DNA of 64,000 nucleotides from Clostridium massiliamazoniense (GTDB lineage: Bacteria; Bacillota; Clostridia; Clostridiales; Clostridiaceae): the NCBI RefSeq assembly GCF_001403635.1, contig NZ_LN879467.1:310001-374000 (forward strand). Reading direction: 5' to 3'. The translations under genes and the position numbers were made by a program. Numbering within the stretch: position 1 is the stretch's first letter; the number at the start of each line of letters is the position of its first letter. Of the stretch, positions 3,604 through 62,552 are shown in pieces. The notes under the pieces were generated by a model, which saw nothing but the letters and a program-made list of their open reading frames with translations, was not told the origin of the DNA and did not search any database.

Positions 3604-3656
3604 GAGATAGGCTTATCATTTATAACTACTCACCTACGTAAAGAAGTTCTTTAAAT
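3598..3656. repeat. Partial copy of the long palindromic element
   Basis: The sequence ACTCACCTACGTAAAGAAG and its flanks match, in reverse complement, the right arm of the 193-bp palindromic element at 24892-25084. Only one arm is present, and it is diverged. Confidence 0.65.
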
Positions 3657-5765: not shown

Positions 5766-5817
5766 AAAGATAATATATCAAAGCATTCTTTAAAATTATA
5801 TTATTAGTATCTTTATA

Positions 5818-5888
5818 TGCCTCACGCCTCTAGATAACTTTGACTAAACATTCAGATGGAGTCAGAACTCTACCTGAATTAAGTGCAT
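5818..5888 (-). repeat. Dispersed intergenic repeat, copy A (head part)
   Basis: On the minus strand it reads ACTTAATTCAGGTAGAG, a 4-base gap, then CTCCATCTGAATGTTTAG and GTCAAAGTTATCTAGAGGC. It is nearly identical to the copy at 60550-60618. The head forms a hairpin (TTCAGGTAGAG pairing with CTCCATCTGAA). Confidence 0.8.
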
Positions 5889-5941
5889 TTACAAAAATAC
5901 AAACTCTAAATAGATTCTCCTCTATATGATTTAGTAAAGCA

Positions 5942-10926: not shown

Positions 10927-10967
10927 AAAAAATCCCCTTGTCTTACTCTTACAAATTAATGTTCTAA

Positions 10968-11103
10968 ATAAACTAAGACTTAACTCAGATAGAATTTTAA
11001 CTCTATCTGGATTTTAGTGGTCGTTATTTAGAAACCTATGTCTGTCTACCTCTAGCTTATAAAATAATAAATTATTACATTCTCTAGACATTAAATAAAT
11101 CTA
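10968..11103 (+). repeat. Dispersed intergenic repeat, copy B (full length)
   Basis: Head AAACTAAGACTTAACTCAG with stem CTCAGATAGA/TCTATCTGG, then GTTATTTAGAAACCTATG, CTACCTCTAGCTTATAAAA and tail ACATTCTCTAGACATTAAA. The same order of blocks occurs at 35815-35945 and 56353-56490. Confidence 0.8.
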
Positions 11104-16681: not shown

Positions 16682-16852
16682 ATTTTATAATTAACAAAAT
16701 AAGTTTATTTTAATTAATTCAAATTAATCTTTAATCACTTATTTTTTCTTTCTAAAGATAAATAATGCACTTAAAAGAGCTGCCATAGTTCCGAATATTC
16801 CTAAAGTACCACTATCAACTTTTAAACTATCACTTAGACCTGTATGAGGTAG

Positions 16853-18751
16853 TTGATTTATTGCTTTTTGAATGTTTTCTTGAGCATTATGAACTTCTGA
16901 TGGAGTTGAATTAGGATTATTTAAGATATTCTCTCCTTCACTCACTGCTTTTTCAACATTTTTGATTGAACTCTCACTATACTTTTTATTACGTATTTCT
17001 GATTTAGCCTTAGCTATATCATTCTTTAATCCAGTTTTATTTACCTTTAATCCATTAATAGCTTTATTTATAGAATTAATTACATTATTAATCTCTGCTT
17101 TTGTTCCATTAGAATTATCTAATAGCTTTTTACCAGCATTTATTTCATTTTGTAATGACTTCACTGAATCTGGTGTATAAATTCCACTATTTATATCATT
17201 TTCACCTTGTTCTATTAACTTCTTAATCTCTGATTTATTTACTGATACTTTCTTTGTACTTGGATTATCATTATTAATAATCTTTTTAGGTTGTACTACT
17301 TTAACTGGATTCTTTTTGTTGTCTTCATTATTTACATTACTTACTTTTTTATCATTATTTACTTTATTATTTTCTTTATTTCCTGTATTTGTATCTGACT
17401 CTTTTTTATCCTTACTTACAGTATTACTTTCTTTTACTTTATTATCTTTTAATCCATTTATAGCATTGTTTATAGCTTCTACTTCTTTATTAACCTCATT
17501 TTGAGTAATATTTTTATTACTTAATAACTCTTTAGCAGAATTTATTACATTCTCTAAGTTTTCTATTGAATTAGGTGTATATTTATTATTATTTATATAA
17601 CTTTCTCCTAATTTTATAGCGTTCTTAAGTTTTGAAGTATCTACATTGCTTGTCGGATTTTGCACTGGACTAACCTTAGTTTTTTCACCATTAGGTTCTG
17701 AACTTGTTGGTTTTACCTGTAATCCATTTATAGCATTTTCTAAAGCACTTGTTTCATTATTGATTTCATTTTGTGTTGCATTTAAATTTTCTAATAAAAC
17801 TTTTGCTCTACTTACTTCATTTACTAAAGATTGAACAGATTGTTTTGTATACTTTCCACTATTTATAGCTTTTTCAGCAACTCCTACAAGTTTTTTAAGT
17901 TCTGAAGCATTAGCTCTATCTACTAAAGATTTAAGAGAATTATTTATTCTATTTTCAGCATTATGAACTTCTTCAGGTGTTACATTAGAATTACTTAAAA
18001 CTTGTCTTCCATTTTCTAATGCTTGTTGAACAATCTTAACTGAATCAGGTGTATATTTTTCACTTCCTATTTGAGCTTCAGCTTTCGCTATATCACCTTT
18101 TAATCCTGTTTCATTTGTCTTTAAAGCACCAATTGCTGTATTAATAGCTTTAATATCATTATTAACTTCACTTTCACTTAAGTTTGGGTTAGTTAAATCA
18201 CTCTTTCCAGCATTTATAGCATTCTCTAAAACATTTACAGAATTTGGTGTATAATCTCCACTATTTATAGCACTTTGTCCTTTTGCTATATCATTCTTAA
18301 GCTCTGATTCATTAACTTTTTCTACCTTCTTAGCAGGTTTATTTTCTTTTAATCCTTTAATAGCATTATTTATAACATCCACTTGATTATTTACTTCTTC
18401 TTGTGTTGCATTTGGATTATTTAATAAAGTTTTTCCTTCTTCAATTGCTTTTTCTAAAGATTCTACTGATTGAGTTGTGTACTTTTTACTATTTACATCA
18501 GTTGTTCCTTCTTTAATTGCTTTTTCTAAAGCTTCTGTATTAGCTTTCTTTACTAATCCTTCTATTGCTTTATTTATAGCATTTGCATCATTATTTACTT
18601 CACTTTGAGTAGCTTTCGGATTACTTAATAAAGCTTTTCCGTCTTTTATATCATTCTCTAAAGCTTTTACTGAATCTGGTGTATAATCTCCACTATTTAT
18701 AACACTTTGTCCTTTTGCTATGTCCTTCTTAAGCTCTGATTCATTTATTTC
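16853..18751 (-). repeat. Eight FIVAR modules (protein-level tandem repeats)
   Basis: Each module of about 70-80 residues follows the pattern L-K-I-G-Y-T-S-V-L-A-L-N...T-E-V-N-I-AI-L, for example DIAKGQSVINSGDYTPDSVK and LLSNPKATQSEVNNDANAIN. An Asn/Lys-rich spacer separates modules 6 and 7. DNA-level similarity between modules gives scope for recombination that changes the number of repeats. Confidence 0.85.
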
Positions 18752-21700
18752 ATTTTCTTTTGGCTTAATTAAAGATAATCCATCTTTAGTTATATAAATA
18801 GTTGTTGGCTTTTTAATATCATATTGACTTATACCCTGTGGTGTCATAATTTTATTAATTGATAATTGTGATGATGCTTTATATTCTATTATGAACTTAT
18901 CACCAACTTTAAAATCAACATTATTAAATGTATTAGTTAAATCACTTCCTATATATACTCCACCATTAGCGGTAAATGATTTTATAACCTGTCCATCTTT
19001 ATTTTCTAAGATTAACTTAAATGCTTCTCCTGATAAATAAGGATTAACTTCACTCCATCCACCTTGTACTTGAATTTTATAATTTTCATAATTAAACTTA
19101 ATAGCACCTAAAGGTTGTTTCCAAACATTATTTATAGTTAAAGTAGAATTAACTCCATATATTTGTGTAGTTTCATTAATTAAAGTTCTTGAACCTATAC
19201 TATCTTTATAAATAACCTTTTCTCCAACTTGAAGATTTTCAGGCAATTTCATACTTACCTTACCATCTGCACCAACATTCTCTTTATAAGTTTTATTACC
19301 AATTGTAAGTTCAACTTGAGAACCTGATATAGCATTTAAATCAAGGGTCTTTGTGTTTGTTGTTATATCTAAAGTAGGTTTTTGCACATATTCTAACCCA
19401 TATTTAGTAACAACAATATTCCATTCTTGAAGATCATCTGCAATTGTTGGTTTTAAGTTACCTTTATTCTTATTCATCTCACTATAATTCACTGCTATTT
19501 CAGTATTAGATGTAGGTGCATCAAATGTAATTATAGTACCTATTGGGAGCTTCTTTTGTTGTAGAAATTCTTTTGCCTCATTAAAATTACTATGTTGATA
19601 TATATCCTCTTTAAATATTACTTTACCTTCAGGATTACTTACTTTCATATTCATGAAGTATTGATTTCCTTTAGCTTCCCAATCTGGATTTCCACCAGTT
19701 GATACAAAATTTATTGTTCCTTCTGGAGTCATACTTAATACAGCTAAAGTTCCCCCAGCACCGTTATTAGATACTACACTAAAGGATTTATTATTTTCAA
19801 TGAAAGCTTTACTAAGAGATAATACTGATACATAACCTTTTGTTTTTTCAGGTGTCTCTGCATATATTTTAGCTATACTACTCTCACCTTTAGGGAATGA
19901 TATAGTAAATTTACCTGCACTATTACAAGTTGTTGTATAATCTTTTCCATCATATTGAACTATAACCTTTGAATTTGGATTAACTAGCCCTTTAATAATA
20001 TAACTATTATTCACCAATTGAGGAGTAAGTATTGTTACAGGCACACTCATATTTCTGTACTTATTAAAATAATCCTCTTTAGGAACTAAATTAGTCGTAT
20101 TTGTTGAATTATCAATAACATATTTTATTAAGTTTTGATTTTCTATCTTATATCCCCACATTTCTAATGATGGAATTATATTTGTATGATATATTTTTGC
20201 CATAGCATAAGCTAAAAAATCTATTCCTTTATAAGGCAATGTATTGTTATACCATTCTGATCTATATAAATCATCTGTTTTAGCCATATAATCAGGAAAA
20301 TATTGTTTTAATAATGTAAAATAATATAATCCTTCACTAAACTGTTGTAGATAATTAGTTGGAAAATCACCGTTAAGATATCCTTCAAATATTGGGCCTA
20401 TATTTTTATCAACATCTTTTGGATTTAACCCATTATAAAGCCAACTTGTTTTTCCCTGAATTCTTAACTGAGTTTCTTGAGTATACATATTTGAATATAC
20501 TTCACAATGCAAGTAACTATCAGCCCAAATTGGATCAAAAATATGTCCTACTTCATGGAACATTATCCAACCTGGAGTAGTAAGGCCTATCTTAAACATA
20601 CCTGGAATAGCGCTTGTTCCTCCACTGCCAGTCCACCAACCATCTCCATTATCAGAAGTGTAAGTAGTTACATAAAAGAAGTTTGTATGAAACTTATCTA
20701 ATTGACTAGTAGCATTTTGAGATAATCCATTTAACTCATTATCACTTATGAAAGCTTCATTATACCAATTTACTGTATTTTGAGCATTAAATGTAGTTGG
20801 TAATGACTCTCCTACATTAGGAATATATATTCTAACATGATCTCCTATTATAATTGCTCCATGGTCTATATTAGAAGGACTGAATATTTCTTTATTAAAG
20901 GTTGCCTCATTACTAGTTGCTTCTGAATCTATTTTGACGAATCCTCTATTATCAAAAACAGGAATAGATCTATAATATCCACTTTGAACTTTTACATTTA
21001 CTTTAAAGTTAAATTTGCTAGCTTGATTTCCATCATAATCAACATTTCCAGTATCTACTATTAAGGCCCCACTTTCAGGAACATTAACAACTGTTGGCGT
21101 ATTAACATTTACAGTAGTTAAGTACTGTCTTTTAACTCCATTATTAAAATAAATTGCAGCCTTTTCTTTTATATCACCTTTTATATCTATTAATACCTTT
21201 GCCTTCCCTGAAAATTGCAGTGGAATTGGTTCATAAGATGTTAATGTCATATCATCACCTTTTAAGGCTACTTTACTTGATGGTGAAAAACTCGCATACC
21301 TAAACATATTATAAGAAAATTCTTTAAGAGAATTAGAATATGCACTATATACTGTAACTGGTAGTGTCTTCATATTTCCTTTTATAACCGTTACAGTTAT
21401 AGGTGTCCCTACAGTTATATCACTAGGTACTTTAAATATAAATTGCCCCTTTGAATTAGTCTTATAATCATAATCCTTACCATTTATTTTTATAGTTACT
21501 CTAGCATTAGCATATGAATTAATAGTCAATTTATTTCCTGACACACTAATACTTGGTTGATTAACCTCAAGAAGTCCATCCTTTGTTATTTTTAATACTA
21601 TAGTTTTGTTTATTTCATAATTTTTCTGATTATTGAAATTGGATATACTTATCTTTGAAGAACTATTGTATTTTATTTTTATATAGTCCCCATAAGAATA

Positions 21701-22325
21701 TTTTAAATTATTTAAGGTGTTATATAAATTTTGCTCTGGATATTCATCTCCATTTACTTGTATACTCTTTATTAATTCAGCATTGTTTTTATATAAGCTA
21801 ATAGAAAAAGCATCCTTATTTTTTGCTAAATATGGATTAACCATAGTCCATCCTTTTATAAATTCTATTTCTGATGTTATTGGATTAAATTTTAAAGCAC
21901 CAATATTTTCATTCCAAACGTTATTTATAGTTATAACATTATTTAAAATTTTATATACATTTGGATTTGGTGTTACCTCTATACTCTCACTTACTTCATT
22001 ATGTGGAGCTACTACTATATTAGTTCCTGGCATAATTGAAGATGGTAAAGTTACCTTAAAAGCACCACTACTTCCAGATATAGTACTATAAGATTTATTT
22101 CCTACCCATAATGTAACCAAAGTATTAGGAGTGGTCTCCCCTGTTACTACTGTATTATTTCCATTATAATAAGCTCCAAGGTTACTTACACTATCATTAT
22201 TTAACTTCTTAAGACCATTTCTTGTAATTATATAATTTATCTCTTTTCTACTTTCAACTCCATCAACCTCTAAATGTGCATTACTTCTACTTATTATATT
22301 AATTATATCACCATAATTAAACTTT

Positions 22326-22996: not shown

Positions 22997-23015
22997 CATA
23001 TTTAATATTTAATTG

Positions 23016-23056
23016 CTGGTCTTTAATTAAATTCTACCTGAATTAAGTCTTAGTTT
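23016..23056 (-). repeat. Dispersed intergenic repeat, copy D (head stub)
   Basis: On the minus strand AAACTAAGACTTAATTCAGG is the conserved 5' head of the repeat family, then the match decays. It overlaps the 3' end of the 164-residue gene. Confidence 0.6.
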
Positions 23057-23544
23057 ATTTCATCTAAAATTTCTACTATCATAGATGGGTCTGGTGATAA
23101 TTTAAATCCTGATATTTCTGTAGCCACTGAAATTGCTGTACTATAATTATTGTTTCCTATATTAAATTTTATATTTGTTCCATTATTATTGAAAATAAGT
23201 TTTTTATTTTCTAAATCACAACTTAAATTTTGACCCTTTCTATAAATTATAATTGGATTTAAACTTTTTGTAGCTTTATAAAGATTTATTATTGGATATT
23301 CTCTCTTAAGTTCTAAACTATAAACAAGTTCTTCTACTGATTTATATGCAAAATTTATATTTCCACCATCAAATTCATAATCAAGGTTTCTTATATCCCC
23401 TGTTTCTAAAGCACTTAATATTGTATTTCTTAACTTTTCATCTGAACTATCTCTGTTTACTATATCTATTAAATCAAATTTTTCTCCTGCCTTAAGAGCA
23501 GTTATTACTTTTTCAAACTTGCTTATTCTCACTTTATCTTCCAT
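23050..23544 (-). CDS. Hypothetical cytoplasmic protein, 164 aa
   Basis: Not recognised. The protein has no signal peptide or membrane helix. The N-terminal half is alpha-helical and charged (KFEKVITALKAGEKFDLIDI), and the C-terminal half is beta-rich with Asn-rich turns (NNNGTNIKFNIGNNNYSTAI). AAGGAG precedes ATG and codon use matches its neighbours, so it is probably real. It forms a single-gene unit with its own terminator (22957-22996). Confidence 0.7.
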   Translation of the reverse strand: MEDKVRISKFEKVITALKAGEKFDLIDIVNRDSSDEKLRNTILSALETGDIRNLDYEFDGGNINFAYKSVEELVYSLELKREYPIINLYKATKSLNPIIIYRKGQNLSCDLENKKLIFNNNGTNIKFNIGNNNYSTAISVATEISGFKLSPDPSMIVEILDEIN

Positions 23545-24891: not shown

Positions 24892-25084
24892 TAGCTATAT
24901 AGGTACAAAATGCTGTGACCATTGAACTAGTACTAGAAGCTCTTTATTTTTGAACAATAGTTTCGTAAAAAAATTTCCATTGTTTGAACAAAGTGAGTTT
25001 GGAAATTTTAGAAACTGTTGTAGAAAAAATATTAGAGCTTCTTTACGTAGGTGAGTGGTCACAAATGGTGAACCTATATAGCTA
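24892..25084. repeat. 193-bp long palindromic element (MITE-like or structured RNA)
   Basis: Outer arms TAGCTATATAGGT (24892-24904) and ACCTATATAGCTA (25072-25084) are perfect complements. TGACCA pairs with TGGTCA inside them. Then AGAAGCTCT (24935-24943) pairs with AGAGCTTCT (25034-25042), and GTTTC...AATTTCC pairs with GGAAATTTTAGAAAC. Only a loop of about 20 bases near 24985-25005 is unpaired. The minus-strand frame through it (24895-25113) is not credible as a protein. One arm recurs at 3598-3656. Confidence 0.8.
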
Positions 25085-26448: not shown

Positions 26449-26493
26449 AAAGGAGTATCTCTAAAGATTTAAACAACCTTAAGATACTCCTTT
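26449..26493. terminator. Terminator after the DUF5412 gene
   Basis: Perfect arms AAAGGAGTATCT and AGATACTCCTTT. Similar in sequence to the hairpin at 22957-22996. Confidence 0.85.
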
Positions 26494-26549
26494 ATCTGTT
26501 AACTAATACTTATAATACTTTAATCTTCTATAAATAATTACTTGTCCCT

Positions 26550-26612
26550 AAATAACTTCCATTAAAATTCAGCTATAATCAAAACTCTAGCTAAATTAAA
26601 TCTGAGTTTACT
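26550..26612 (-). repeat. Dispersed intergenic repeat, copy E (head)
   Basis: On the minus strand AAACTCAGATTTAATTTAGC, TAGAGTTTTGATTATAGC, then TGAATTTT: the hairpin head of the repeat family, closest to copy G. It abuts the MutS-like gene's stop codon. Confidence 0.65.
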
Positions 26613-31218: not shown

Positions 31219-31262
31219 TAATTCAGATAGAGTTTTTAACTTTATCTGACTTTCACTAAAAG
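31219..31262 (+). repeat. Dispersed intergenic repeat, copy F (head hairpin)
   Basis: ATTCAGATAGAG, then CTTTATCTGAC: the stem-loop head of the family, 12 bases after the permease stop, with no tail. May terminate the ABC operon. Confidence 0.65.
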
Positions 31263-35721: not shown

Positions 35722-35814
35722 CTTATTTTTTAAAATTTATTTTATTGTTGTTAAAAATTCCAATCTCTCCTCATCCTCTGTTTATTTGTAAAAGTAATAT
35801 TATGGTATAATATA

Positions 35815-35945
35815 ATAAACCAAGACTTAATTTAGATAGAGTTTTAACTTTAGCTAAATTTTAGTTATTGTTATCTAAAGACCTGTGTCTATTCATCTCT
35901 AGCTTAGAGAACATTGGGATATACAGACATTAGTCACCAGAAAAA
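35815..35945 (+). repeat. Dispersed intergenic repeat, copy G (full length)
   Basis: AAACCAAGACTTAATTTAG, stem TTTAGATAGAG/CTTTAGCTAAA, GTTATCTAAAGACCTGTG, CATCTCTAGCTTAGAGAAC and tail ACAGACATTAGTCACCAG. It lies between the hydratase terminator and the HAD gene, ending about 20 bp from its start. Confidence 0.78.
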
Positions 35946-48802: not shown

Positions 48803-49673
48803 ATAACACTTTATGAAAGCCAATTACTTGATTAGAGTGAACACCAATTACAAGTATTACTTTTTCTCCATTTTTAAAAATACGATTTTTAGAATTAAAA
48901 GTTATTTCTTTATTATTACCTTCTAGAATTTTAATAGTATGATATCCTCCAGTTCCCCTTCCACTTTGTCCATAATTAATACAAGTTCCTTGACATTTAA
49001 TAAATGAATTAAATTTACAATCTAAAATTTGTTGAAATGGCTCTTGTGAAATAAAAAATATACTACACGCTATTATAAATAGCATACTTGTAATTATATT
49101 AAAATTCAAAATATTAAAATATATTAGCGGTGCACTTAAAGGTACCAATATAAAAGTAAAATATAAAATTGTTGTTATTAAAGAACTTATAAAACCTTCC
49201 CATTTATTATATCTTTTTAATTCATTTTCACCTATTATTTTTACCTCTTTATGCTTCCATAAATAACGTAAATTATTGTATGAATAAGAAAAGTTAAAAA
49301 TTCCAATAAAGAATACCTCACTTGCTATTATCATTATAGGTATTGAAATATAAAAAAATTGTTTTTTAAATAAATACATTCCTATAATTATACTATAAAT
49401 AACTAATATACTAGTAAAGTACTCCTCCCTTAATATATTAATATTAATTTTCCTTTTAATGATATTTCTCTTTATTTTTTTTATTTCTCTTAAACAGAAG
49501 AAAAATAATATTGTTGGTATCATATAAATATTAAAGATAATTATTTTATCAATAAAAGATAAATCATTATCAAATGCATATGATGATGGAATTATTAAAA
49601 ATGCAATATTAGCTAATAAAAAACTTGCAATATAAATAAGCTGACGAAAAGTAATATAAATTTTGTTATACAC
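48801..49673 (-). CDS. Membrane protein with C-terminal soluble domain (about 290 aa)
   Basis: About six hydrophobic segments fill residues 1-210 (QLIYIASFLLANIAFLIIP, YFTSILVIYSIIIGMYLF, LITTILYFTFILVPLSAPLI). The last 70 residues form a small beta domain with CQGTCINYGQSGRGTGGYHT and GEKVILVIGVHSNQVIGFHK. AGGAGG is too close to ATG 49679 but 7 nt from GTG 49673, so GTG is favoured; the frame is open to 49742. Function unknown. A degraded paralogue of the C-terminal domain lies at 50700-51215. Confidence 0.65.
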   Translation of the reverse strand: MYNKIYITFRQLIYIASFLLANIAFLIIPSSYAFDNDLSFIDKIIIFNIYMIPTILFFFCLREIKKIKRNIIKRKININILREEYFTSILVIYSIIIGMYLFKKQFFYISIPIMIIASEVFFIGIFNFSYSYNNLRYLWKHKEVKIIGENELKRYNKWEGFISSLITTILYFTFILVPLSAPLIYFNILNFNIITSMLFIIACSIFFISQEPFQQILDCKFNSFIKCQGTCINYGQSGRGTGGYHTIKILEGNNKEITFNSKNRIFKNGEKVILVIGVHSNQVIGFHKVL

Positions 49674-50699: not shown

Positions 50700-51215
50700 A
50701 ATTTACTGCAATTTCAAATAATCCTTCTAATCCTTCAAAACTATCAATAAATACTTTTCCTAATTCAGTTATCACTATTGCAATTCCATTCTCTATTTGT
50801 ATAGCTTTTGAACTTAATATTTCTATCAATAGTAATATCATTACCTTTAAGTTTTAATCATACTAAAAAGTTAAAAAATGCTCCATTATTCTTTTTGAAA
50901 AAACTGCATGTATTACTGTTATTCTATCGCCAAATTTATAGGTTTTTATTGGCGCTGATATAGTGATAGTTCTTTCATTCCTATAATCAGTTACAACTTA
51001 ACCAGTATATCTACTTTTAGGATCAGTTATTTTATCTGTACAGCCCCCTTCTATTTTAGTATATTGATTTAGAAAAAGATCTAATATATATCCTCTATTT
51101 AGATATATAAAAATTATTAAACATCCTATAATATTTTATAATACCCCCTAGCTCCTCCTTGTCCACTTTGTCCATAGTTAATACAAATCCCTTGACATTT
51201 AATAAATGTAACGAT
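50700..51215 (-). pseudogene. Degraded paralogue of the C-terminal domain of the 48.8-49.7 kb protein
   Basis: Minus-strand pieces are FIKCQGICINYGQSGQGGAR (about 51215-51155), GGCTDKITDPKSRYTG, VVTDYRNERTITISAPIKTY and FGDRITVIHAVFSKRIMEHF (about 51040-50880), then FIDSFEGLEGLFEIAVNYP (about 50750-50695). The first matches FIKCQGTCINYGQSGRGTGG of the intact gene almost exactly. Many stops and shifts; no membrane part survives. Confidence 0.6.
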
Positions 51216-51848: not shown

Positions 51849-51895
51849 GGATCACAAATAAATAACAAATTTAATAATAATTTAGAAAATATTTT

Positions 51896-51998
51896 ATCTG
51901 ATAGCTAGAGACTGTAATACTCCTATCTTCTATAAGCAGGAGACAAACAGCCTCATGCTTCTAGACAACTACGACTTAATTATTAACTAGAGTTTTAC
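51896..51998 (-). repeat. Dispersed intergenic repeat, copy H (tail plus middle)
   Basis: On the minus strand: GTTGTCTAGAAGCATGAGGC, CTCCTGCTTATAGAAGATAG, GTATTACAGTCTCTAGCTAT, CAGATAAAA. The tail is almost identical to copy J (56353-56490); the hairpin head is changed. Confidence 0.75.
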
Positions 51999-52600: not shown

Positions 52601-52645
52601 CTATTTTAACATAAGATTTTTCTTTTTAGTTAATTCTCTGAAATT

Positions 52646-52738
52646 TCACCTAATAACTAGTGTCTATAATACCCTATTCCTCTCTAACCTAGAAATAAAG
52701 AAACACTAGTCCTTAGATAACTTACAAAGTACTTAAAA
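52646..52738 (-). repeat. Dispersed intergenic repeat, copy I (tail)
   Basis: On the minus strand: GTAAGTTATCTAAGGACTAG, TCTAGGTTAGAGAGGAATAG, ATTATAGACACTAGTTATTA. Diverged tail of the repeat family. Confidence 0.6.
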
Positions 52739-52746
52739 CTTTAGTT

Positions 52747-52986
52747 CTATAGCTCAGCTAAATCCTTTAAGAGTCTTATATTCTTTACCTTGTCTTCCTT
52801 TGAAGAATTAAGTTGCATATTTTCATCGTAATTATTATTGTAATAATTATATTCTTCTGTGAACATATTTCTACCGAAAGATGTAAATTCAGAACTTTGT
52901 GGATTTTTAACCTCAACTTCTATGTACCTTATATCCTCATTTTTAATTGCATCATCAAATATATGTAAAAATTCTGTTTTTTTCAT
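52747..52986 (-). CDS. Small hypothetical protein (79 aa)
   Basis: An acidic soluble protein with an Asn/Tyr-rich middle (EEYNYYNNNYDENMQ) and charged ends. AAAGGAT precedes ATG. Family not recognised. No membrane helix or signal peptide. Single-gene unit between a repeat and a terminator. Confidence 0.55.
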   Translation of the reverse strand: MKKTEFLHIFDDAIKNEDIRYIEVEVKNPQSSEFTSFGRNMFTEEYNYYNNNYDENMQLNSSKEDKVKNIRLLKDLAEL

Positions 52987-56254: not shown

Positions 56255-56352
56255 TTAATTTTATCCCCTTCCCAATTGAAACATTTAAACAATCTATTAA
56301 AGTATATATTTATATGTTAATATTTACAAGCAAAATATAAAATTCCTATAAT

Positions 56353-56490
56353 ATAAACGTAGACTTAATTCAGGTGAAGTTTTGACTCCATCTTAGTGCA
56401 TAGTGGTGGTTATTTAAAAGGGTAAGGCTGTTTATCTTCTACTTATAGAACATAGGAATATTACATCCTCTAGCTATCAGATAAATTTTG
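56353..56490 (+). repeat. Dispersed intergenic repeat, copy J (full length)
   Basis: AAACGTAGACTTAATTCAGG, stem TTCAGGTGAAG/CTCCATCTTA, GGTTATTTAAAAGGGTAAGG, CTTCTACTTATAGAACATAG and tail TACATCCTCTAGCTATCAGA. It is the clearest full copy with copies B and G. Confidence 0.82.
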
Positions 56491-57524: not shown

Positions 57525-57546
57525 CATATAAACTAAGACTTAATTT
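57525..57546 (+). repeat. Dispersed intergenic repeat, copy K (5' stub)
   Basis: TAAACTAAGACTTAATTTTA: only the first 16-18 bases of the head are present. Confidence 0.45.
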
Positions 57547-57564
57547 TATTATTTTTACTATAAA

Positions 57565-60540: not shown

Positions 60541-60549
60541 CCTCTAAAT

Positions 60550-60620
60550 ATAAACCTAGACTTAATTCAGGTGGAGTTTTGACTCCATCTGAATGCTTAG
60601 TCAAAGTTATCTCATAGCTT
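60550..60620 (+). repeat. Dispersed intergenic repeat, copy L (head and middle)
   Basis: AAACCTAGACTTAATTCAGG, stem TTCAGGTGGAG/CTCCATCTGAA, then TGCTTAGTCAAAGTTATCTC. Nearly the same as copy A in the opposite orientation. Confidence 0.8.
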
Positions 60621-60632
60621 TTCACTCTATAA

Positions 60633-61661
60633 TTATATTCCTCTTTCGTAAGCTGAAGGTAAGTAATCTAATTTTATATTTCTTTTCTTAGCTTCATTTA
60701 AAACCCAATAAGGATCTCTTAATAAAACTCTTCCTAAGAATATTAAATCTGCTCTATTATTTTCTATTATTTCAGTGCCTTGATCTCCTGTTGTAATTAA
60801 TCCTCCTGCTATAACTGGAATATTACAATTTTCTTTTATATATTCAGCTTCTGGAACTTGATATCCAGGATAAGCATTTATAATGACATCTGAAACAACT
60901 GCTCCAGTACTTACATTAACTAAATCTATACCTTCTTTTTTAACTATATCTATTATTTTAGCCATTTCTACCTTAGTATTTCCACCTTCTACGTAATCCT
61001 TTGCTGAAACCCTAAGTGCAAGTGCTTTATCCTCCGGCCAAACTTTTTTAACTTCTTTTATTACTTCAACAATAAACCTAGTTCTATTTTCAAGACTTCC
61101 ACCATACTCATCTTCCCTTTTATTAGATAAAGGTGATAAGAACTCTGAAAGTAAATATCCATGTGCACCATGGATTTCTATAAAATCAAAACCAGCTTCT
61201 AAAGCTCTTCTTGCCCCTTCTCTAAATGCTACTTTAACTTCTTCCATTTCATTCTTAGTCATTTCTACAGGTTCTTTATATTCATCACTAAAAGCTATAG
61301 CTGATGGTCCTATTATAGTTTCATTTTCTATAGAACATTTTCTTCCAGCATGCCCTAATTGGATACCTACATATGCTCCATACTTTTTAATACCTTCTAC
61401 TACCTTTTTTAATCCTTCAATATGCTTTTCATCCCAAATTCCTAAATCTTTATCAGTAATTCTTCCTCTTGGTTCAACAGCAGTCGCTTCAAGAATTATA
61501 GCAGAAACACCACCTATAACTCTATTCATATAATGAACATAATGAAAATCATTAACCATTCCATCATTTTCAGCCATATACATACACATAGGCGCCATAA
61601 TTACTCTATTTTTTAAATTTAAGTTTTTTAAAGAAAACTCCTTGAAAATACCTTTTGTCAT
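60633..61661 (-). CDS. Old Yellow Enzyme family NAD(P)H:flavin oxidoreductase (NamA/YqjM-like)
   Basis: A 342-residue FMN-dependent TIM-barrel enzyme reducing activated C=C bonds or nitro compounds. NRVIMAPMCMYMAENDGMVN carries the Cys typical of the YqjM-like class. Further landmarks are HYVHYMNRVIGGVSAIILEA, the substrate His pair in FIEIHGAHGYLLSEFLSPLS then NKREDEYGGSLENR, and the FMN-phosphate loop DLIFLGRVLLRDPYWVL. Length equals the usual 338-345. AAAAGGAG precedes ATG. An inverted repeat (61680-61721) covers the likely promoter. Confidence 0.92.
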   Translation of the reverse strand: MTKGIFKEFSLKNLNLKNRVIMAPMCMYMAENDGMVNDFHYVHYMNRVIGGVSAIILEATAVEPRGRITDKDLGIWDEKHIEGLKKVVEGIKKYGAYVGIQLGHAGRKCSIENETIIGPSAIAFSDEYKEPVEMTKNEMEEVKVAFREGARRALEAGFDFIEIHGAHGYLLSEFLSPLSNKREDEYGGSLENRTRFIVEVIKEVKKVWPEDKALALRVSAKDYVEGGNTKVEMAKIIDIVKKEGIDLVNVSTGAVVSDVIINAYPGYQVPEAEYIKENCNIPVIAGGLITTGDQGTEIIENNRADLIFLGRVLLRDPYWVLNEAKKRNIKLDYLPSAYERGI

Positions 61662-62435: not shown

Positions 62436-62497
62436 GGCTTACATCTATTATACACCCATTAGCAGAAAATTTGCAAATTCATTTACAAAAATACTTT

Positions 62498-62552
62498 TAT
62501 CTCATGACTAGTGTCTGTAATACTAAAGTCTCCATAAGCTATAGATAAACTA
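62498..62552 (-). repeat. Dispersed intergenic repeat, copy M (tail)
   Basis: On the minus strand: CTATAGCTTATGGAGACTTT, AGTATTACAGACACTAGTCA, TGAGATAAA, a tail-only copy directly after the helicase stop codon. Confidence 0.6.

Follow-up and report, generated by a model that had tools for sequence, protein, structure and literature searches.

A two-hairpin, ATAAA-bounded repeat of Clostridium massiliamazoniense and other Bacillota, probably a non-autonomous mobile element oriented by the replication fork

Repeat copies in the window and their anatomy

The window is a stretch of 64,000 nucleotides of Clostridium massiliamazoniense DNA (contig NZ_LN879467.1, positions 310,001 to 374,000), and the repeat under study occupies its positions 10967 to 11099. 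The original prediction assigned this repeat and 11 other places in the window to a single family. A covariance model, R1, matches eight of the 12 listed places at E<=5e-4. Because R1 was built with four window copies among its sequences, an independent check was needed, and hairpin profiles made without any window sequence recovered five of the eight (60551, 56354, 5884, 10968 and 35816; E 6.5e-11 to 3.4e-4). The grouping therefore stands for these eight places and, in addition, for 23016, which reads as a clear head fragment despite its poor model scores, while 31219, 57525 and 62498 are weak members. The features of the window are as follows, with the supporting evidence in brackets.

10967..11099, + strand: the copy under study, near full-length, ATAAAC...AAATAAA (R1 86.1 bits, E=5.5e-17; R2 E=4.3e-13)
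10977..11019, + strand: first hairpin, H1, of the 10967 copy (alignment A1 and structure)
11025..11097, + strand: second hairpin, H2, of the 10967 copy, including the outer stem TTAT...ATAA (alignment A1 and structure)
35814..35945, + strand: near full-length copy (R1 E=6.1e-22)
56352..56485, + strand: near full-length copy, ATAAAC...CAGATAAA (R1 E=1e-18)
26491..26612, - strand: near full-length copy, TAAAC...CAGATAAA (R1 E=8.4e-14)
60549..60663, + strand: head copy, H1 whole and H2 mostly gone (R1 E=7.7e-11; profile without window copies E=6.5e-11)
51893..51985, - strand: tail copy that keeps H2 and the right end but has lost H1 (R1 E=1.6e-10; 84 nt are 82% complementary to the 56402 stretch)
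5812..5893, - strand: head copy, H1 and centre (R1 E=4.6e-7; 53 nt are 94% complementary to 60560-60612)
52645..52750, - strand: decayed copy, chiefly H2 (R1 E=5e-4)
23008..23059, - strand: head fragment, listed place 23016 (R1 E=0.85, R2 E=3.4; 32 nt are 94% complementary to 10966-10997)
31219..31254, + strand: lone H1-like hairpin, uncertain (R1 E=0.076, R2 E=0.062)
57530..57548, + strand: short head-like stretch, uncertain, listed place 57525 (19 nt, of which 3 differ from the head motif)
62496..62548, - strand: tail-like stretch with the end GAGATAAA, uncertain, listed place 62498 (by reading)

Even with filters off and a threshold of E<=5, R2 does not match the last two places, and 23016, 31219, 57525 and 62498 are fragments, with certainty falling in that order. 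Four copies rather than the three first counted are near full length (10967, 35814, 56352 and 26491), and the eight good copies do lie in both orientations, four on each strand. Other repeats of the window include six 187-nt units, 61-81% alike to the reference copy, within a 1793-aa open reading frame (16739-22120, - strand), a 47-nt direct repeat (48960-49006 and 51162-51208; 94% identical, 2.2 kb apart) and a 44-nt inverted pair outside the ATAAA-element family (3607-3650 and 25034-25077; 84% complementary, 21 kb apart).

Aligned copies define an element of ~130-160 bp, ends included, consisting of two imperfect hairpins bounded by ATAAA...ATAAA. On the strand of the original prediction, the consensus reads ATAAA-G-TGA-GACTTA-[H1]-TTAGTC-GAA-CTTATCC-AGG-GACTTA-[H2]-TTAGTC-ATC-GGATAAA, with the head sequence GTGAGACTT and the tail sequence CGGATAAA. 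The tail, which had been taken for a separate conserved block, is the 3' side of the second hairpin, and the true ends are the two ATAAA motifs. The inner stems of H1 and H2 vary freely between copies, as at L069; this copy (L069:1501-1617), with its unrelated inner stems, lies directly 5' of what by eye is an apparent 16S rRNA gene start.

Covariation across both hairpins is strong, and the compensating stem changes noted in the window are confirmed far beyond it. In alignment A1, which comprises the four near full-length window copies and eleven copies from other genomes and was made by MAFFT only, not model-fitted, 85.2% of cells are paired, and 68 cells carry two-sided changes; shuffles give 28.4, and sliding the partners never gives more than 23. 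These changes fall in 23 of 49 pairs, compared to 17.9 in shuffles (23 is reached in 14 of 500), and the number of pair types is no higher than in shuffles. In A3, whose 50 rows were fitted to the model and are hence biased towards it, two-sided changes are found in 40 of 49 pairs and in 359 cells versus 111.1. G.U pairs are about as common as A.C mispairs in A3 (87 vs 85) and rarer in A2 (113 vs 178); with no G.U excess over A.C, there is therefore no visible preference for one RNA strand. Where the left ATAAA pairs with the centre, covariation is weak. The idea that the central TTAT guides both ends was rejected, given that the right stem is supported, the left is weak, and TTAT is missing in many Bacilli copies. 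Rfam gave no gathering match in the 64-kb window and nothing at the element in four other loci (L018, L019, L020 and L013; E<=1). For annotators, the covariance model supplies a family unreported by Rfam, of which some genomes have dozens of copies or even more.

Insertion at ATAAA and spread among genomes

The borders of the element are sharp, with unrelated flanks to the left of the left ATAAA and to the right of the right one. Counts of the exact motif are given below for seven genomes as left end, right end and both ends; the right-hand ATAAA is often not exact, notably in G006 and G449.

G003: 29/31, 27/31, 25/31
G006: 29/31, 16/31, 14/31
G023: 6/7, 6/7, 5/7
G142: 4/6, 6/6, 4/6
G202: 11/11, 8/11, 8/11
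G246: 46/49, 43/49, 40/49
G449: 17/20, 8/20, 7/20

The comparison of flanks and the counts of direction by local GC skew leave out 14 of 100 matches: ten antisense hits, a good tandem copy at L086 13714, and three partial copies (L099 8269, L107 2935 and L106 15549).

Seven insertions were compared between G023 and G142. Four from G023 are filled in both genomes, and three from G142 are empty in G023, where the sites read T-ATAAA-C, A-ATAAA-T and T-ATAAA-A, each with a single ATAAA. The filled counterparts are longer by 126 bp and have ATAAA at both ends, except that the left repeat is GTAAA in one of the three. Thus, in these three insertions, an ATAAA was already present at the site before the element arrived, and the inserted element is now flanked on each side by an ATAAA-like repeat. 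The target is always this same asymmetric 5-mer, and tandem head-to-tail copies share a single ATAAA (L086, L219 and G272, with four in a row). In G246 and G449, 68 of 69 copies are intergenic. The right flanks of L113 and L114 (query 284-360 and 541-719) gave dozens of further matches in G023 and G142, and another dispersed repeat therefore adjoins these insertions.

Rather than being confined to the window, copies occur in other genera, and neither of the outcomes that would have refuted the original prediction, restriction to the window or absence of covariation, was observed. Scanning genome contigs with an exact pattern turned up 20 loci, which belong to Sporomusa, Pelosinus, Desulfosporosinus and several MAGs of Firmicutes, Peptococcaceae and Negativicutes. 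In the genome searches, up to 150, 16, 13 or 8 candidates were scored for each genome, such that 'no match' means none among those scored. R1 matched at least 28 of 199 genomes in the phylum of the genome that supplied the Sporomusa silvacetica locus (G001). R2 matched at least 64 of 249 genomes in the order of G202 and, at E<=1e-6, at least 41 of 398 in its class; G202 was assigned to Bacilli because its copy matches Pseudalkalibacillus and Peribacillus plasmids. On these matches, the superfamily appears to be spread across Bacillota and across classes, and the clostridial scope proposed at first is too narrow, as the carriers include Bacilli and Negativicutes.

Copy numbers can be high. Eight genomes have at least 24 to at least 148 matches each (E<=0.01, 150 candidates scored per genome; antisense hits may be included), and in G003 at least 75 distinct places were counted by hand among the matches listed, all above 112 bits. 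Mean within-genome identity is 0.89-0.96 in five genomes compared to pairwise values of 0.62-0.73 among five window copies, indicating young copies in the former and old copies in the latter; the window copies are thus old, decayed and partial relics.

Bacilli-type copies are present on Bacillaceae plasmids, including Pseudalkalibacillus plasmids (R2 E=3.3e-19 and 5.4e-18). A window copy had no match in the phages or plasmids searched, a Sporomusa copy had no plasmid match, and a pattern match in a viral contig (L021) was rejected as an element since the rest of the element is missing there. A plasmid recorded as Klebsiella grimontii pNY3A carries a head-like copy (L351:1500-1612; R2 E=1.5e-6), for which transfer and a mixed-origin record are both possible.

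Direction relative to replication

Direction was scored in four genomes chosen as complete and with a located dnaA, in which the assumed replichores agree with GC skew in 56 of 60 stretches. Because the other four stretches disagreed, the terminus of G246, placed halfway for the locus count, was reset to 1.70 Mb for the tests of gene class and target supply. With the tandem copies of G272 and G449 collapsed, the element lies against the leading strand at 38/54, 21/23, 15/16 and 5/8 loci in these four complete Bacilli genomes (p=0.0038, 6.6e-5, 5.2e-4 and 0.73), or 79 of 101 loci in sum; the bias is not significant in G272 alone (5:3, p=0.73).

To separate replication from transcription, 69 copies (49 of the 54 in G246 and 20 of the 24 in G449) were sorted by their neighboring open reading frames, which were called mechanically. 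The ratio of copies against the leading strand to copies with it is 16:2 between convergent genes, 10:3 between divergent genes, 22:10 where both genes are on the leading strand and 6:0 where both are on the lagging strand. Since the lagging-strand class fails to reverse, direction tracks replication and not genes. Nor can target supply explain the bias: in intergenic DNA of the same stretches, with copies masked, TTTAT makes up 47.7% of ATAAA plus TTTAT on the leading strand, and the observed fractions exceed this expectation of 0.477, at 54 of 69 copies (p=1.9e-7) and, when three genomes are taken together, at 74 of 93 (p=2.6e-10). Tested against its own target supply, each class gave p=6.6e-7 (convergent), 0.0041 (both leading), 0.019 (both lagging) and 0.15 (divergent), the last not significant by itself.

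The sign of local GC skew gave the same direction in G003 (21:10), G023 (6:1), G142 (6:0) and G202 (8:3), and no bias in G006 (16:15) or among the eight good window copies (4:4). These results indicate that in several genomes the element takes its direction from the replication fork rather than from nearby genes, with the TTTAT strand being the lagging-strand template; this is shown statistically in the complete Bacilli genomes, whereas one MAG and the window lack the bias.

Mechanism, relatives and alternative explanations

Taken together, we favor the interpretation, with a probability of about 0.65, that the repeats are a non-autonomous mobile element belonging to a Bacillota-wide superfamily, bounded by ATAAA and oriented by the fork, for which single-strand transposition is the simplest mechanism. 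Mobility of this kind was one of the possibilities raised by the original prediction, and it is borne out by the empty sites, the fixed target, the target-sharing tandems, the many copies per genome and the occurrence in distant genera. Insertion probably proceeds through the single-stranded lagging-strand template, in the manner of IS200/IS605 or REP elements. Whereas target, ends and direction are observed, we infer the chemistry of movement as follows. The TTTAT strand would become single-stranded at the replication fork, allowing the hairpins to fold; an enzyme that processes single-stranded DNA would then cut after TTTAT at both ends, and the freed strand would be joined into another TTTAT on the lagging-strand template. 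The enzyme would be supplied in trans, and a HUH (Y1-like) nuclease would best fit the anatomy, though not linked to the element.

The enzyme search covered Y1_Tnp only. Of 11 genomes with the element, 9 have a Y1_Tnp match that passes the cut-off, whereas the copy-rich G003 has a single fragment below it and G007 has no match. Among Bacilli, 17 of 20 genomes with the element have a Y1_Tnp match (three only fragments) versus 16 of 20 without it, the former chosen from 64 genomes with matches and the latter being the first 20 listed of 185 without. None of the 60 best Y1 loci, 44 of which come from element-bearing genomes, carries the element within up to ~1.5 kb on either side. A Y1 transposase, neither linked nor associated in 11 and then 40 genomes, was thus rejected as the obvious mover, and these results imply that the mover has been lost, is only occasionally present, or is a different enzyme.

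The closest described family is bcr1, one of the group A Bacillus cereus repeats bcr1-bcr3, and the element, which we set beside it by description only, is kin of the bcr1 kind and not a proven bcr1; both are intergenic, structured, high in copy number and have TTTAT, the complement of ATAAA, at their ends. As reportedly described by Okstad in 2004, bcr1 is ~155 bp long with TTTAT at each end. It is a small, intergenic, structured mobile repeat with a mean of 39 copies per strain and a mobility tied to TTTAT motifs (PMC6542083), and a survey of stem-loop families places Bcr1 with other Firmicutes families such as Efa-1 and Clop-1 (PMC2267715). Transcripts of two strains include many of the intergenic bcr copies, 84 of 165 in one and 62 of 155 in the other (PMC3446304). 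In contrast with bcr1, which has been described from the B. cereus group alone, the element is found in other Bacilli, Clostridia-type bacteria and Negativicutes, and no fork direction bias was noted in the passages on bcr1 consulted. Plasmids of the B. cereus group gave no clear match to the element, and in the part of the literature that our search covered, no such family was found outside this group.

Among elements that move as single strands, IS608 and ISDra2 do so at the fork and prefer lagging-strand insertion (PMC6006769), while one survey of IS605 copies in Halanaerobium saw no strand preference, the leading strand carrying 10 of 22 (PMC7290912). The element resembles the IS200/IS605 family and PATE, the non-autonomous elements of that family associated with palindromes, in having subterminal hairpins, a lagging-strand preference and, possibly, an insertion point 3' to a fixed target of 4-5 nt (PMC6006769, PMC7290912), but it differs by having identical letters at both ends, and no TnpA with matching ends was found for it. 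REP/REPIN elements with TnpA-REP (RAYT) are likewise intergenic hairpins in many copies, for which a Y1 nuclease acting in trans is the presumed mover (PMC6006769). Unlike these, the element lacks a GT[AG]G tag at the foot of the hairpin in its consensus rows, has a fixed ATAAA insertion site, and does not flank Y1 genes (0/60). The target of ERIC/RU-1 of enterobacteria differs from ATAAA, as do its hosts from those of the element. The likeness to ERIC/RU-1, compared by description only, lies in its size of ~127 bp and its intergenic, MITE-like, multicopy nature (PMC2759123).

The most serious alternative is a classical MITE, which would have arisen from a DDE transposon by deletion, would move in trans as a DNA duplex and would duplicate a sequence-specific 5-bp target, ATAAA; bcr1-3 have indeed been termed MITE-like (PMC3446304). 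ATAAA at both ends and the single ATAAA at empty sites agree with it, and the end motifs are ambiguous because a 5-bp target duplication by a double-strand transposase gives the same letters. Good terminal inverted repeats are not evident, however, the left end having by eye a weak likeness to the complement of the right end; moreover, the target is invariably one asymmetric 5-mer, direction is biased with the replication fork, and no larger autonomous copy or enclosed gene was seen among the 34 lone heads and tails read in the loci examined, a small part of the genomes. We consider this alternative unlikely. Considerably less probable is a structured RNA copied back into DNA (a retro-type element) via the lagging strand, which some group II introns use for insertion. 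The conserved structure, the lagging-strand bias and some truncated copies, such as the tail-only L087 and L088, would fit such an origin, but G.U pairs are no commoner than A.C mispairs, truncations occur at either end, and Rfam has no match. Retention for function, as a terminator, processing signal or small-RNA family, would suit the intergenic position of 68 of 69 copies, the hairpins and the compensating changes, but is the least probable reading and these proposals of the original prediction were set aside, as direction goes with replication and not with genes in the two genomes that allow these to be told apart (16:2 even between convergent genes), three gains lie at unrelated sites, window copies are decayed and partial, inner stems vary freely (L069), there is no G.U excess, and Rfam is without a match in the window or the four other loci. 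Single copies may still serve as 3' ends or parts of UTRs.

Returning to the mobile-element interpretation, we tentatively suggest, at somewhat worse than even odds, a wider version of it, in which the repeats represent an ancient superfamily without a transposase of its own, with bcr1 as one branch, that spreads across Bacillota by inserting as a single strand at TTTAT, coupled to replication; its mover would not belong to the known Y1/IS200 group and might be a host protein of replication or single-stranded DNA processing. With the cross-class structure, fixed target, clean empty sites and fork bias in hand, the part played by lagging-strand DNA and the nature of the enzyme become open to test. 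New here are the full extent of the element (ATAAA to ATAAA, two hairpins), its target, the proof of insertion, its occurrence in several classes and the link between its direction and replication.

The 34 lone heads and tails look like truncations, H1-only palindromes, diverged copies or local gene duplication. Two tail-only copies (L087:14793-14845 and L088:18886-18928, - strand) end on their left side inside H2 against unrelated sequence. In G023, a head fragment was duplicated along with a 0.7-kb gene region (L199:6195-6240 and L200:6917-6963), and the stems of these two fragments differ by a compensated change (TTGAG with CTCAA). Three H1-only variants (L008:3103-3165, L012:2896-2957 and L050:2546-2612) are near-perfect palindromes running from ATAAAGTGAG or ATAAATGAG to the complement, and look like hairpin-mediated rearrangements; the variant at L050 retains the tail ATCGGATAAA.
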